The notes under the pieces: model-generated
Told to the model about the DNA's origin: nothing
Database searches by the model: none
Seen by the model: the letters and a program-made list of their open reading frames with translations, nothing else
In this document: positions 28,736 through 51,062 of the stretch, piece by piece
How the letters are laid out: each line of letters begins with the position of its first letter
Position numbering within the stretch: the first letter of the stretch is position 1
Translations under genes and position numbers: made by a program
DNA from: Tsukamurella sp. TY48
Lineage (GTDB): Bacteria; Actinomycetota; Actinomycetes; Mycobacteriales; Mycobacteriaceae
Direction: 5' to 3'
Assembly (NCBI RefSeq): GCF_019656655.1
Contig: NZ_BPMV01000001.1
Location: 1,054,001 to 1,118,000 of the forward strand
Length of the DNA: 64,000 nt

Positions 28736-30015
28736 ACTCCGAAAATCGCTAGATGGAGGAACCCGGCCGCCGAGCCCAGCACCGCGCCGTGCAGGAACAA
28801 CAGCCACTCGTCCTGTTTGATGGCCGAGCGCAGCAGCTCACTGAGGTCCTCGGGCCGCAGGATGCTCATCCGTGCGACCACGAACTCGCGGACCTTGGTC
28901 TGCTGCTGGGCGGCGAACTCCGGATCGCTCACCGTCTGCTCGGCCACCTTGATGGCCTCCGCTCCGGCCAGCTGCGGCACCCGCTCGTAGGTGTCGTAAC
29001 CCACCGACAGCTTGACCACGCCGCGCGCCCAGCCCGAGGCCTTGTCGACCGAATCGCGGAGCACGGATTCGACGGTGGCGCGGGTGCGGTCCGACCGCGG
29101 GCCGTGGAGCAACTCGTCGCAGATGTTCTCCACGGTGACCACCTGATCGGCCATCACGGTGGCGTACTGCTCGGCGATCTCCTGGCGACGCTTGAGGAAC
29201 AGTCCCTGGCGCCACGGCACCCAGCGGTTCGAATGCAGCGGTTCGAAGATCATCGTCAGGCCCACGTAGTTCACCACGTAGCCGATCACGATCCCGCCCA
29301 CCGGCAGCAGCCACCAGTAGGGAAAGAAATGGAGTAGACCAACCAGAACGAAACCCATCGGATATCCGAAATAGAATCCGAAGTTCTGCATGAACAACAA
29401 TTCTTTGCGGCCGACGTTGTAGAAGATGTCCTTGAGCACCTTCGGATTCGCCGAGAGGTAGCGGATCACCATCAGTTTCGCGTCGATGTAATCGTCGATG
29501 TTCTCGCCGATGGTGGAGGTGATCTTTCGGACGTCGGTGGGCAACGAGGCCGCCACCCGGCGGTACACGAGAAGGCGGACGTCCTCGGGGAGCGAGTACC
29601 ACAGCCGCGGATTCTCGCGCCGCATGATCCCCTCGACGATGGACGGGATCTCGGGCAGCGCGGCGCGGGTGAGTTGCTCGGAGATGTACTCCGGATCCAT
29701 CACCTCGTAGAACTGCGCAATGCTTCCGACCTTGGACAACGACTTGTCCACGGCGATGCTCGCCATCTTCTCGGCGCGGGAGGGGACGATGCCCTGCCAG
29801 CCCACCCTGCCGTCGGCCCGGATGGCCGGGATCACCTGCACCCGGCGGGGCAGGAACGGATAGAGGGTGGCCACCCCGGGAACCTTGACGCCGTAAAAAC
29901 GTTTCGGCTCGAACAGCATGAGAATGCCGGTCCAGTTGGTGATGTAACCGATGATGCCGGTGAACAGCGGAATGGTGATCAACTGCTCGATCAGGTGCCA
30001 ATTCACCACGCGCAC
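28732..30015 (-). CDS. DUF445 membrane protein
   Basis: 427 residues starting at one of three closely spaced GTG codons (30015, 30009, 30006). Helix IIGYITNWTGILMLFEP near the N-terminus is the DUF445 signature, repeated in the second half as VGLTMIFEPL; a further hydrophobic region lies at FGYPMGFVLVGLLHFFPYWWLLPVGGIVIGYVVNYVG, and the extreme C-terminus is a hydrophobic anchor (LFLHGAVLGSAAGFLHLAIFGV). Cytoplasmic-coiled regions between. Function unknown. A patch near 29320-29410 is unusually A/T-rich (25 G/C in the 60 bases 29341-29400). Its stop overlaps the DUF4393 start. Confidence 0.85.
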   Translation of the reverse strand: MRVVNWHLIEQLITIPLFTGIIGYITNWTGILMLFEPKRFYGVKVPGVATLYPFLPRRVQVIPAIRADGRVGWQGIVPSRAEKMASIAVDKSLSKVGSIAQFYEVMDPEYISEQLTRAALPEIPSIVEGIMRRENPRLWYSLPEDVRLLVYRRVAASLPTDVRKITSTIGENIDDYIDAKLMVIRYLSANPKVLKDIFYNVGRKELLFMQNFGFYFGYPMGFVLVGLLHFFPYWWLLPVGGIVIGYVVNYVGLTMIFEPLHSNRWVPWRQGLFLKRRQEIAEQYATVMADQVVTVENICDELLHGPRSDRTRATVESVLRDSVDKASGWARGVVKLSVGYDTYERVPQLAGAEAIKVAEQTVSDPEFAAQQQTKVREFVVARMSILRPEDLSELLRSAIKQDEWLLFLHGAVLGSAAGFLHLAIFGV

Positions 30016-43852: not shown

Positions 43853-44284
43853 ATGGCCTCCCTGATCCTGCTGCGGCACGGAAAGTCCGCCTACCCCGAC
43901 AAGGTGAAGGATCACGACCGGCCGCTCGCGCCGCGCGGGCTGCGCCAGGCCAAGCTCGCGGGCACGGCGATCCGCCGCTACGGGCACACCGTGGATCTGG
44001 TGCTGTGCTCGACCGCCGAACGCGCCCGCGCCACGCTGGCGCAGACCGAGGTCGACGCGCCGGTGCGGTACCTGGGCGAGTTGTACGGCGCGTCGGGCGA
44101 GGAGATCCTCGCGATCGTCGACGCCGAGCGCGGCGAGGCGGAGACCGTGCTGGTGGTGGGGCACGAGCCGGGCGTCGCCGATGCGGCGCAGCTGCTCGAT
44201 CCCACCTTCACTCTGACCAAGTTCCCCACATCCGCCTTCGCGGTTGTCGAGGATGGTCACGCGGAACTTCACATCCCTCGCTGA
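43853..44284 (+). CDS. SixA-like histidine phosphatase, tandem paralog
   Basis: 143 residues, MASLILLRHGKSAYPD..PLAPRGLRQAKLAG..LCSTAERARATL..VLVVGHEPGVAD, the RHG and distal His motifs of SixA. TAGGAT at 43840-43845 is seven bases before ATG 43853, a better start than 43844. Second of two tandem phosphatases; together they may have divided substrates. Confidence 0.87.
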   Translation: MASLILLRHGKSAYPDKVKDHDRPLAPRGLRQAKLAGTAIRRYGHTVDLVLCSTAERARATLAQTEVDAPVRYLGELYGASGEEILAIVDAERGEAETVLVVGHEPGVADAAQLLDPTFTLTKFPTSAFAVVEDGHAELHIPR

Positions 44285-44337
44285 CCAGGCAGCTCCGGGC
44301 ACACACCCGACCCCGCGCGCCCGAGCAATCGTTCGCA

Positions 44338-44343
44338 TATAGT
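44338..44343 (+). promoter_or_regulatory. -10 box for the low-GC toxin island
   Basis: TATAGT, a consensus-quality -10, gives a start near 44350 and a leader of about 30 bases before GTG 44382; GGGGGA at 44372-44377 serves as ribosome-binding site. Marks the likely 5' end of the three-gene island. Confidence 0.55.
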
Positions 44344-44381
44344 GTGCCGCAGAATCATCGGTCAAGACATTGGGGGATGTC

Positions 44382-45272
44382 GTGTATCGAGTGAAACGTG
44401 TGCTGGCAGCGGTGGCAGGAATGCTCTGCCTGGTTCTGCTGAGCGTCTTTCCAACAACGGTTGCCAATGCAGGCCCGGGCGATGTCTGCCCAGGCGTAGA
44501 AGCGGCGATGCGGTCGCTGGGCGATAGGATCGCCGCACACAATGCGGCGCCACACCAGTTCCTTCTCCCCGATCAGATGGCGCAGTACAACGCGTACAAC
44601 GCAGAGAAGGCCCAGCTCGACACCGAGCAAGCAGCCCTCAAATCGAGGGTGATCGCATGCACAGAAGCTACAGCCTCGGTCGCGAAGACGGTTCCCGGCG
44701 GCGCACCGGTGGAGACACGGGCACCAGATGCCATCCGCGACAAACTTGACGCGGGTAAGAGAGCAATACCGCCGAACTGGCAGACCCCACCGATCAGTCG
44801 GAAGCCCTCAGGAAAACCCGAGGTTCCGAAGACATCGCCACTCAGATCGATCTATGACTCCCTTCGCGGCGCCTCACCTAAGAAGCCGAAGGAATTCGGA
44901 AATGTCATTCTCCAAAACGAACCGAAGCCCAAGATCGGCGACCCGAACCCCGCCTACCCAGGGCAGACTATTGGTCGCAATAGATCAGGTCTTCCCGCCG
45001 TGTCTCCCGACCACATCGTTTCACTAGCCGAACTGGTCCAACTCAACAATTTCTGGAGGCTCACCCCTGATCAGATGTATCTACTTTCCACCACTCCCAT
45101 CAACTTTCAATGGCTACCCACTGGGCCCAACCAATCAAAACAATCCGGAAGTGCCGCTTCCGTCAACCCGCCACCAGATCCGGGGTGGATACGCGCTCAA
45201 GTCGCACTCGAAGATCGCGTTCGAGCTGCATTGCAGGATGCAATCGACAAGCTGGTGATAGCGAATGGATGA
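44382..45272 (+). CDS. secreted HNH-type nuclease toxin candidate
   Basis: 296 residues. Signal peptide MYRVKRVLAAVAGMLCLVLLSVFPTTVANA. Middle is helical and Lys/Pro-rich. The C-terminal domain shows an HNH-like pattern: DHIV (210-213), N241 in INFQWLP and NQSK (250-253), as in polymorphic bacterial toxins that cut nucleic acid. Codon use and base composition are AT-richer than all neighbours (28 G/C in the 60 bases 45541-45600 of the adjacent gene), suggesting acquisition. Downstream acidic gene overlaps its stop by 8 bases, toxin-immunity style. Activity is inferred from motifs only. Confidence 0.72.
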   Translation: MYRVKRVLAAVAGMLCLVLLSVFPTTVANAGPGDVCPGVEAAMRSLGDRIAAHNAAPHQFLLPDQMAQYNAYNAEKAQLDTEQAALKSRVIACTEATASVAKTVPGGAPVETRAPDAIRDKLDAGKRAIPPNWQTPPISRKPSGKPEVPKTSPLRSIYDSLRGASPKKPKEFGNVILQNEPKPKIGDPNPAYPGQTIGRNRSGLPAVSPDHIVSLAELVQLNNFWRLTPDQMYLLSTTPINFQWLPTGPNQSKQSGSAASVNPPPDPGWIRAQVALEDRVRAALQDAIDKLVIANG

Positions 45273-45972
45273 CGGAATGCCCTACCGTATCGAAGAGATC
45301 GAAGACGCACTTTCGACAGAGGCAGTAACCGCCCGAGTCGCTACCGACTCAGAAGTCCTCCATAGCAACATGCCTGACCAATGGGTCTTGATTCACGAGA
45401 GTCACGATCCCCGACGCAGAACCGAACTCGCTCTGGATCTGTGGGGGCCCGCCATCCGGCAAGCAATTCCACAGTACTTCGACAATCTTGAAACCCGCCT
45501 CGACGACGTTCGACTTTTCACACTCACTCTGGACAACGAAAACATTTCTGCGCTCATCTACATCTGTGGTCGAACTAGCTCGAACTTCCCTATTGTGTGG
45601 ATCGGAAGAATTCCGACGACCGGCGAGCAGGATCTACCTGAGGCGCTCGAACCACTACGAGCCTTCTTTGAGAGCACCCACTCCGAGTTCACAGCCGAAG
45701 ATTGGATGTCGAACGGGATACTTCCGCCTGAGCAGTACGACGAACTCAGATTTGAATCACGGATTCCAGACGACGACGATGTCGTCCTCGACGACGGCCG
45801 AACGATGAACACCGGAGACCTACTCGTTACGGCGAAGTATTCCGGTGCACTCTTCCTGTGCTTGGCACCCGCAACCGGGGAAGGAATCCTAGAATCTGAG
45901 GGAAACTTCGATACTGCCGCTCCGTACCTTCCTCATCTCGACCGACTCATGATCCAAGCGTGGGAGGCCTAA
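45265..45972 (+). CDS. acidic candidate immunity protein
   Basis: 235 residues, starts inside the toxin gene end (ATGGATGA). Strikingly acidic (Asp/Glu-rich: IPDDDDVVLDDGRTM), no signal peptide, so cytoplasmic, with alternating strands typical of immunity barrels. No known immunity family is recognised. Close pairing with the secreted nuclease candidate and shared low-GC composition suggest it neutralises that protein inside the producing cell (inferred). Confidence 0.62.
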   Translation: MDDGMPYRIEEIEDALSTEAVTARVATDSEVLHSNMPDQWVLIHESHDPRRRTELALDLWGPAIRQAIPQYFDNLETRLDDVRLFTLTLDNENISALIYICGRTSSNFPIVWIGRIPTTGEQDLPEALEPLRAFFESTHSEFTAEDWMSNGILPPEQYDELRFESRIPDDDDVVLDDGRTMNTGDLLVTAKYSGALFLCLAPATGEGILESEGNFDTAAPYLPHLDRLMIQAWEA

Positions 45973-46430
45973 TGACCCCACCAAGCCTCACACCGGAGCA
46001 GAATCGCCGCCGCTGGCGCCTTCTGCTGTGTGGGATCGCCGTCATCACGCTCGTGACCGTGTCGCTCATGGCGGTGGCCATCTGGCGTGGGGGCAGCCTT
46101 CTCGGTCCGAGCGCGGAAGCTCAGATCGCATCGACCGCTCGCAGTTTCGCTCACGCTGTCGACACCCGAGATCAAACGACGATGCTCAAGCTGCTCTGCC
46201 GCGAGGAAGCAGACCAAGTAACAAGTGACGACGATTACGACCCCGACAACTCGTCGGCCGAAGTCGGCCTCATCCCTCGTCCGTTCCAAGTCCAGTCTGT
46301 CCAAGTCCTCAACGACGTTGCCGCCGTCGAATTCTCTCGGTCGGAACCGGTCAGTAGAGGGACCTTGTACCTCACGAAGGAAGACGACACGTGGAAGGTC
46401 TGTGACGTCGCGAAGACACGTTTCGAGTAG
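45972..46430 (+). CDS. membrane-anchored extracytoplasmic domain protein
   Basis: 152 residues. One N-terminal helix (LLLCGIAVITLVTVSLMAVAIW, about 17-38) anchors an outside domain of about 110 residues resembling the DUF4878/NTF2-like fold (IASTARSFAHAVDTRDQTTMLKLLCREEAD..VEFSRSEPVSRGTLYLTKEDDTWKVCDV). ATG shares one base with the preceding TAA (TAATG) and GGGAGG lies just before, so translation is coupled. Low-GC like its partners. Could help export or receive the toxin; unknown. Confidence 0.7.
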   Translation: MTPPSLTPEQNRRRWRLLLCGIAVITLVTVSLMAVAIWRGGSLLGPSAEAQIASTARSFAHAVDTRDQTTMLKLLCREEADQVTSDDDYDPDNSSAEVGLIPRPFQVQSVQVLNDVAAVEFSRSEPVSRGTLYLTKEDDTWKVCDVAKTRFE

Positions 46431-46461
46431 CGCACCGATTGCGACGCCTACTCTGGGAGCC

Positions 46462-49496: not shown

Positions 49497-50942
49497 CTAC
49501 TTCGCCTCGGGGCTGCTCGGCTCGGCCGCCGCAGCGGGACGGGCACCGGCGGGCCCGGCGAAGACGGTGCGGCCCAGCGGCTGCCAGATCAGCAGGATCG
49601 CGCCGAAGATCATCGACGAGGCGCCCGCCGGAACGTCCAGCGGCCAGAAGGCGATCGCACCCACCACGACCATGGCGCCGCCGATCAGCAGCGAATTGCG
49701 CCCACTCTGCTGCGCCATCGGGATCATCGCGCGCCCCGTCGTGTACAGGCTGGCCGGGGTGCGGCGCAGCACCTCCGCGATGCCCACGGTGAGGAAGCAG
49801 GTCACGACGAAGGTGATCGCGGTGACGATCGGCGCGTACACCTCGAACCGGAACCGCTGGATGGTGGGCGCCAACTCCTGCAGGGCGAAGCCGTGCACCA
49901 GGAAGATGCCGAAGGAGCGATCGGAGGCGGTCTTGAGGAACCGGTCCCAGAACGAACCGGGGGTGCGGCGCTCGGACCAGATGGTGCCCGCGGCGTACAG
50001 GGCCATGATGATCAGGACGAACATCGCGGCGTAGAAGGGGCGGAAGACGTTCGCGGCGGTCACCGGGAACATGCCGTCGTCCACCAGGCCCAGGTAGTAC
50101 ATGATCGAGACGGCGATGCTGATGCCGGCGAGCACGATCACCCAGCCGCGGAACCGCGACATGAACTTCTTGACGCCGTCCAGGTGCATGGCCGCCACAC
50201 AGCCGAGCAGCGTGAAGAACTGGTACGGGATGAACGTGGCGGGCAGGTGGTTCCACAGCTTCGCCAGCAGCCCGTAGTTGAAGATCTCGGGGCGCACCTC
50301 GGTCATGTACTGGAGCAGCACGAGGTGGAAGGCCAGGCTCACCGCGAGCAGGTACTTGTGATAGCCCCAGGTCCAGCGGAGGAACTTCAGCAGGAACGGG
50401 AACAGCAGGTACACCTGCAGCGTCACGAAGACGAAGTAGAGGTGGTACCAGGCGTCGCCGGTGAGCAGGTCGTACCCGAGCACCTTGAACGCGGTCTTCG
50501 TCGATTCCCAGGTCTCGAACGTGCGCCAGACGTTGGAGAACGAGGGCGGCCACATGATGTACATGTGGTACAGCCAGTAGAAGACGGTCCACACCACGAA
50601 GGGCAGTCCGACCGCCTTGTAGCGCTTGCGCCAGAACTCGAACGGCTTGAGCTGCCGATCCTTGTACTGGTACACCAGCACGAAACCGGTGAGCGCGAAG
50701 AAGGCGTTGCGGGTGTAGTGGAACACCGTCTGCACGGCGTTCGACGCGACGCTGAACGGGAACGTGGTGCCCGAGACGCAGTGGTCGAAGATCACGCCCG
50801 CGAAGGTGACGATGCGCACGATGTCGAGCTGGTAGAGGTGCCCGCCCTTGGTCTTGCTGGGGACGTAACCACGCTTGCGTCGCGGCTTCTGCGCCTCCGT
50901 CTCCGGTTCGACGCCATCGCTCATGGTTCGGTCCACGCTCAC
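49497..50942 (-). CDS. acyltransferase-3 family membrane protein
   Basis: 481 residues, about ten membrane helices. LDIVRIVTFAGVIFDHCVSGTTFPFSVASNAVQTVFHYTRNAFFALTGFVLVYQYKDR contains the catalytic His/Arg region of the family (OafA-type, here with DHC), and the tail is Pro/Ala/Ser-rich. Such enzymes acylate glycans, lipids or mycolates from the cytoplasmic side; substrate unread. The start may be GTG 50942 or ATG 50924. In Mycobacteriales an envelope-lipid target is plausible. Confidence 0.83.
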   Translation of the reverse strand: MSVDRTMSDGVEPETEAQKPRRKRGYVPSKTKGGHLYQLDIVRIVTFAGVIFDHCVSGTTFPFSVASNAVQTVFHYTRNAFFALTGFVLVYQYKDRQLKPFEFWRKRYKAVGLPFVVWTVFYWLYHMYIMWPPSFSNVWRTFETWESTKTAFKVLGYDLLTGDAWYHLYFVFVTLQVYLLFPFLLKFLRWTWGYHKYLLAVSLAFHLVLLQYMTEVRPEIFNYGLLAKLWNHLPATFIPYQFFTLLGCVAAMHLDGVKKFMSRFRGWVIVLAGISIAVSIMYYLGLVDDGMFPVTAANVFRPFYAAMFVLIIMALYAAGTIWSERRTPGSFWDRFLKTASDRSFGIFLVHGFALQELAPTIQRFRFEVYAPIVTAITFVVTCFLTVGIAEVLRRTPASLYTTGRAMIPMAQQSGRNSLLIGGAMVVVGAIAFWPLDVPAGASSMIFGAILLIWQPLGRTVFAGPAGARPAAAAEPSSPEAK

Positions 50943-51062
50943 TGAGTTGAATCCCTCATACAGCCAGTTAATACCTGGTCACAGGTCCTAGGTACCGTAA
51001 CCGGTGGGTCTGCAAGGGTCCAACTCGGCGCGCGTGCCTCCCGCCGATCGACACGATGCGGG

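Follow-up and report, generated by a model that had tools for sequence, protein, structure and literature searches.

A three-gene island of Tsukamurella sp. TY48 encoding a candidate secreted HNH-type nuclease toxin, an acidic partner and an Rv0361-family membrane protein

Architecture of the three-gene island

The window, that is, the whole analysed stretch of 64,000 nucleotides (64 kb) from the 4.37-Mb genome of Tsukamurella sp. TY48, contains three consecutive genes on the forward strand that together form a compact unit. ORF1 (44382..45272, + strand) encodes a candidate secreted nuclease toxin of 296 aa when read from the GTG at 44382, with an alternative TTG start at 44370. ORF2 (45265..45972, + strand) encodes a candidate acidic immunity protein of 235 aa, and ORF3 (45972..46430, + strand) a one-helix membrane protein of 152 aa. 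The start of ORF2 at 45265 precedes the end of ORF1 at 45272, giving an overlap of 8 nt, while the end of ORF2 and the start of ORF3 share position 45972 (1-nt overlap), in agreement with the preliminary description of this DNA, in which the three genes were called coupled. As read from the sequence, GGGGGA precedes the GTG of ORF1 at 44382, and GGAGG directly precedes the start of ORF3. A single TATAGT promoter had also been proposed. The hexamer is present at 44338–44343, but a scan for sigma-70 promoter pairs returned 0 against 0.6 expected by shuffling, leaving a native sigma-70 promoter unsupported.

The genes lie in a segment of unusual composition. The stretch 44286–46455 has a G+C content of 58.0%, compared with a mean of 70.2% (sd 2.8%) for windows of 2,170 bases slid across the 64 kb, and the lowest-G+C window of all 61,831 begins at 44323, overlapping the island. 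The AT-rich character described earlier is thereby borne out, as is the count of 28 G/C in 45541–45600. The extent originally given (44338–46430) is too narrow: the low-G+C stretch is real, but the insertion is wider and reaches from 44286 to ~46455. Two further dips in G+C occur in the window at 29001–30000 (62.1%) and 50001–51000 (61.7%).

The borders of the acquired island (44286..46455, right end approximate, no strand assigned) are defined by this composition and by the flanks of sibling genomes. The left flanking gene, which we take from its sequence to be SixA-like, ends at 44284, and the right one, by the same token DhaK-like, begins at ~46462. The left flank is found in all 15 other same-genus genomes searched. 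Herein, the flanks lie 1–12 bases apart at 13 of the 15 loci, meaning that the island is absent there. At the remaining two (L053 and L054), neither blastn nor tblastn detected the right-hand gene in the stretch read; hence, both are uninformative on the insertion site. The nearest sibling shows 86–88% identity across both flanks and lacks the island. A full-length relative of ORF1 is encoded in 0 of the 15 siblings, and two have the nuclease domain only. Vertical inheritance of single-copy genes within the genus, which had been named as a finding that would speak against the proposal, is ruled out by the empty sites (13/15), and, judged by comparison with relatives, the island was gained in the Tsukamurella lineage of the window.

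A mobile element with visible ends was considered and rejected. Between 44200 and 46600, no inverted repeats were found in a repeat search, and the direct repeats comprise four two-copy families of 14–24 nt, none of which flanks the island, as anticipated in the preliminary description. No match to ORF1 turned up among phage or plasmid records, nor one to ORF2 among plasmid records. Since the island ends carry no repeats, it may have arrived via homologous exchange in the flanking genes.

The secreted protein and its two modules

ORF1 is built of a predicted signal peptide, an N-terminal module (TN), a linker and a C-terminal module (TC). The signal peptide (approximately residues 1–30; 44382..44471, + strand) was recognized by inspection of the sequence, as in the earlier reading, with a guessed cleavage site after …VANA; the structural model places a low-confidence helix at residues 3–22 of this region. 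TN (44487..44660, + strand), defined by alignment and model, is a helical hairpin between the invariant residues Cys36 and Cys93 that also bears an invariant HN. C36, C93, H53 and N54 are kept in all 15 rows of the alignment of proteins that combine TN with TC, and the helices span residues 37–55 and 66–101 in the model. TC (44823..45254, + strand) is the HNH-type nuclease domain with D210–H211 (45009–45014), N241, N250 and K253. In the AlphaFold2 model of ORF1 (six sequences; mean pLDDT 79.4), strands are formed by residues 207–211 and 242–246, followed by a helix at 247–255. This placement would be compatible with the order of the HNH (beta-beta-alpha metal) fold, in which a strand with D-H is followed by a second strand and a helix with N..K.

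Direct searches do not assign the toxin to a family. Pfam offers no match for ORF1 at E 1, and none of the 15 toxin proteins matches a nuclease family at E 0.1, where single weak matches point to six unrelated families. At the same threshold, 0 of the 15 match GmrSD_C (PF07510; formerly DUF1524), none carries a WXG or LXG domain of Pfam, and a sequence search for relatives with a solved structure returned none for the toxin or immunity profiles. A relationship emerges from profile–profile alignment: the profile built from 14 TC sequences matches a set of 18 GmrSD_C-like proteins with a probability of 97.7% (E 9e-12) over the overall domain, bringing the D-H, N and N..K positions into register, whereas control profiles of the immunity, membrane and TN sequences reach 0.3% or less. 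PF07510 itself is confirmed in 7 of 7 Pfam-scanned genes of this 18-protein set, in which L126 is the gene of L013. TC therefore appears to be an HNH-type domain remotely related to GmrSD_C. The DHIV/N/NQSK pattern first seen by eye is thus backed by this alignment and by conservation of the HNH residues at every one of the 12 TN+TC loci with a partner gene, and the possible objection that the first protein lacks a nuclease active site fails as far as it is testable. Differences from GmrSD_C proteins lie in the missing direct Pfam match and in the signal peptide and partner gene of ORF1; no ATPase or restriction part was found. The trio is not classed as a GmrSD restriction system.

The acidic partner

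ORF2 has a net charge of −29 and a pI of 4.19, consistent with the highly acidic second protein reported earlier. Acidity is a family trait, with pI values of 4.05–4.81 for ORF2 and its 14 aligned relatives. The model shows a mixed alpha/beta protein with a mean pLDDT of 87.9. The 15 ORF2-type proteins match no immunity family in Pfam (E 0.1) or NCBIfam (E 0.01), and only weak, unrelated matches occur in single members. None of the three proteins of the trio matches a PADLOC model at E 0.01, and a phage-defence system was set aside on this basis. Relatives of ORF2 also exist where no toxin relative is present in the stretches read (G306:C17, G278:C15 and G082), G278:C15 being a weak ORF2 match (E 1e-11). 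Two variants were observed in passing. At L135, a toxin-less ORF2 relative has a membrane-type match ~3 kb off, and at L037:6607-7974 (− strand) a 455-aa frame joins an ORF2-like immunity domain to a second domain; the stretch read there contains no toxin relative.

The membrane protein

The third component, described before as an unexplained one-helix membrane protein, is identified as a member of the Rv0361 family (NCBIfam NF051431; 50.1 bits, cut-off 37). NF051431 is matched at E 0.001 by all 14 rows of the alignment, that is, ORF3 and 13 relatives. Every one of the 14 rows keeps C76, and C144 is present in all 13 rows that extend to its position. The sole Pfam match of ORF3 is VirB8, below the cut-off (E 0.066). 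The outer domain of Rv0361 is presumably NTF2-like. Four Rv0361-family genes of the own genome score over the cut-off, including the island's copy. The island copy accompanies a toxin, whereas the three others adjoin what we take to be housekeeping genes. Rv0361 itself has been localized to the membrane fraction and, in intact cells, to the surface; other fractions showed additional bands whose size was unexpected (PMC2891697). No stated function for the family was found in the literature searched (open-licence PMC).

Relatives of the system

Relatives are scattered. A toxin profile built from four sequences gave a match of any kind in 35 of 401 genomes of the family and in one of 396 phylum-wide genomes (the own genome); a profile of 15 toxin sequences matched two of 394 class-wide genomes (the own and G278, from the same family). 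A contig profile scan added Kitasatospora and Virgisporangium. The 41 matches of the family survey comprise 13 with TN+TC, six with TC only (five loci, L035 having two), eight with TN only and 14 that are GmrSD_C-like. Of these 14, nine were read, and Pfam was run on four (G041, G285, G315 and G126); G325, G392, G364, G347 and G012:C23 are labelled GmrSD_C-like solely from the part of the profile matched.

The TN+TC set consists of 15 distinct loci, 13 of them (from 11 genomes) from the family survey and two from the contig scan: the window, L032, L033, L034, L038, L070, L072 and L107–L114. L032 belongs to Williamsia sterculiae and L033 to Jongsikchunia kroppenstedtii, as named via their duplicates L073 and L069, and L034 and L038 belong to one Williamsia metagenome-assembled genome (via the duplicate L071). 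L069, L071 and L073 duplicate L033, L034 and L032, respectively, and each pair is counted once. Toxins of the TN+TC loci share a median pairwise identity of 34%. The presence of the system across the genomes searched is patchy.

Both modules occur apart from each other. TC is found outside TN at five loci, either behind long other N termini (L035 and L036), as a tail on a WXG-like protein (L123, by our recognition of the motif) or with no evident carrier (L115 and L124). At L036, in a sibling genome, the carrier is a protein of 1018 aa beside the same partner. TN without TC is found at 11 loci (L074–L076 from the contig scan, L116–L122 and L125), some with short flanks. Nine of these 11 proteins were scanned against Pfam (L119 and L122 were left out), and in six of the nine TN is fused to HINT, deaminase, AHH or Endonuclea_NS_2 domains.

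Which partner goes with which part

All three genes are adjacent in 11 of the 15 TN+TC loci, the window counted, which answers the earlier suggestion to survey whether the trio travels together. ORF2 and ORF3 follow different parts of the toxin. D210, H211, N250 and K253 are intact in 12 of the 15 loci, and in all 12 a relative of ORF2 adjoins the toxin. H211 and N250 are lost in L038, L109 and L110, where an ORF2 relative is adjacent in none of the three (Fisher's exact p 0.0022). Because L109 and L110 are 75% identical, the three active-site losses represent about two events, and with this pair merged as one event, the association has p 0.011. G242 and G391, the genomes of L109 and L110, contain no ORF2 relative anywhere at E 1e-4. 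G132, the genome of L038, has two ORF2 relatives elsewhere, so the dead L038 copy may not need its own.

Outside TN, an ORF2 relative is present at four of the five TC loci (not at L035), and here the link to a live active site breaks in both directions: L115, lacking D-H, and L123, with the TC tail only, still have an ORF2 relative, and L035, whose first TC is apparently live, has none adjacent or anywhere in its genome G070 (E 1e-4). Over all 20 TC loci, the partner accompanies 14 of 15 live domains versus two of five broken ones (p 0.032, uncorrected for relatedness). Given these exceptions, ORF2 follows the TC domain and is tied strictly to the active site only in the TN+TC form.

Three of these loci have peculiar layouts. 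At L035:6095-7048 (− strand), a 317-aa frame lies directly after a 449-aa, apparently intact TC toxin; its N-terminal half consists of a TC in which the catalytic His has given way to another residue, the C-terminal remainder is unrelated, and it may be a decoy-type protector. At L115:3543-4646 (− strand), a single open frame encodes both a TC that lacks the catalytic D-H and an immunity domain resembling ORF2, and the adjoining gene looks to us like a serine recombinase. At L123:3632-5012 (+ strand), the WXG-like N terminus fused to the TC tail is followed by an immunity relative, resembling a remnant of a T7SS-carried version.

The membrane gene has a different distribution. It is adjacent in 14 of the 15 TN+TC loci, 12 times downstream and codirectional and twice divergent and upstream, and it adjoins the dead-nuclease proteins in three of three. 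The sole TN+TC locus without it is L072, where the upstream side is lost to a contig end and another gene lies downstream. It is present at none of the five loci with TC outside TN. Next to TN with other C termini, a clear membrane relative occurs at only one of 11 loci (L125), a weak match 3 kb away at L122 being uncounted; ORF3 thus tracks the TN+TC combination and not TN itself. Around the 18 GmrSD_C-like loci, most with ~1.5 kb on each side, no membrane-gene or ORF2-like match was found at E 0.001 (0/18). As these loci lack the gene and the three other Rv0361 copies of the own genome lie next to apparent housekeeping genes, the adjacency in 14 of 15 loci is not background. L125:3196-5507 (− strand) itself encodes a TN protein with an unassigned C terminus and has two Rv0361-like envelope genes directly upstream, one of them with a lipobox-like sequence.

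Comparison with known toxin systems

Polymorphic toxin systems include Sec-exported toxins with lineage-specific N-terminal domains such as MafB-N, as described by Zhang et al. (2012, PMC3482391). The trio shares with them a signal peptide (by inspection in ORF1) followed by a conserved N-terminal module, exchangeable C-terminal toxin domains, an adjacent partner gene and partners without a toxin. TC sits on different N-terminal parts and TN carries different toxin domains; a candidate immunity gene adjoins the toxin in 12 of 12 intact TN+TC loci and in four of five TC loci outside TN; and the three toxin-less loci named above hold candidate immunity genes on their own. By these neighborhood criteria (PMC3482391), the trio is best read as belonging with polymorphic toxin systems. 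It differs from them in toxin and immunity families for which no Pfam or NCBIfam entry was found and in the dedicated Rv0361-family membrane gene of the TN+TC form.

The WXG/LXG toxins of T7SS, for example EsaD–EsaG, resemble the trio in pairing a nuclease toxin with a cytoplasmic partner, and L123 joins a WXG-like part to a TC tail. ORF1 differs in having a signal peptide, recognized by inspection, and no WXG/LXG Pfam hit, the Pfam search covering the 15 proteins at E 0.1. The trio is not classed as a T7SS LXG/WXG toxin. No description of the trio was found in the open-licence PMC papers searched, and no name for the TC family, the ORF2 family, the TN module or the tied membrane partner was found in Pfam, NCBIfam, PADLOC or this literature.

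Proposed mechanism and alternatives

Comparison establishes, at the level of sequence, the domain make-up, the conserved active site, the gene association, the exchange of carrier and toxin domains, and the gain of the island. The reading that we favor, and hold to be moderately probable, sees the trio as a polymorphic-toxin system that has its own dedicated membrane partner. ORF1 would be exported by Sec, and the TN hairpin, probably closed by a disulphide, would serve as its trafficking part. TC would act as an HNH (beta-beta-alpha metal) nuclease that cuts nucleic acid in a susceptible neighbor, both the activity and the antibacterial target being putative. ORF2 would bind TC in the cytoplasm, probably via its acidic surface, and by neutralizing it would shield the producer before export and kin upon arrival. 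ORF3, anchored in the membrane with its domain outside, might hold or hand over the exported TN+TC protein, docking being the most conjectural step of all. No route is known to us by which a Sec-exported protein of 30 kDa would enter another cell of an actinobacterium. The toxin–immunity arrangement with a third membrane component, as first proposed, draws support from the conserved HNH residues, the GmrSD_C alignment, the joint occurrence of the trio (11/15) and the patchy island.

Alternatively, ORF3 could confer a second layer of immunity on the membrane side, by blocking entry or by capturing the toxin at the surface of the producer itself. Of the 14 loci with its gene, 12 have it downstream and codirectional, and NTF2-fold immunity families exist (PMC3482391). 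Retention of the gene in all three TN+TC loci with a dead nuclease and no adjacent ORF2 relative, together with its absence next to all five loci with TC outside TN, makes this role unlikely. We give slightly less weight still to ORF1 as a secreted scavenging or housekeeping nuclease that acts on environmental DNA for nutrition or matrix remodelling, with ORF2 guarding against retained enzyme. Compatible with such a role, none of the 18 scanned loci of GmrSD_C-type HNH proteins showed a gene like ORF2 or ORF3, but TC also occurs on the 1018-aa protein beside the same partner, partner genes exist without a detected toxin, TN bears HINT-linked toxin domains and presence is patchy. An intracellular toxin–antitoxin or phage-defence module, suggested by a small acquired operon of a nuclease and an acidic partner, is very improbable in view of the apparent signal peptide, the two cysteines invariant in 15 of 15 rows, the lack of a PADLOC match at E 0.01 and the missing phage/plasmid matches for ORF1 and plasmid matches for ORF2.

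Dead-nuclease copies and a possible separate role

The copies with a dead nuclease bear on what the exported protein may do besides cutting. Comparing L109 with L110 by the Nei–Gojobori method gives dN/dS values of 0.37 for the toxin, 0.27 for its last 150 codons, 0.49 for signal peptide, TN and linker, and 0.29 for the membrane domain; a second method yields 0.10 for the last 150 codons of the toxin. For this one pair, the values favor a retained function of the dead copies. Tentatively, and with doubts outweighing confidence, the membrane protein of Rv0361 type might assemble with the exported TN+TC protein into a surface unit that has its own task and can be separated from the nuclease. In some lineages this pair would then persist with the nuclease inactive and the immunity gene missing, in two cases from the entire genome, perhaps as a decoy, a receptor block or an adhesion partner against the live toxin. 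If this holds true, exported proteins of mycobacterial relatives would have a docking partner in the Rv0361 family.

Significance

The island adds a candidate toxin family and a candidate immunity family for which no match was found in Pfam or NCBIfam. Its parts are separated by nature itself, with one partner accompanying the nuclease domain and the other the TN+TC carrier even when the nuclease is dead, and this separation gives the Rv0361 membrane family a testable role. Mycobacteriales possess a mycolate envelope, and the trio, as a small operon, lends itself to the question of how toxins exported by Sec could be active between cells enclosed in it.
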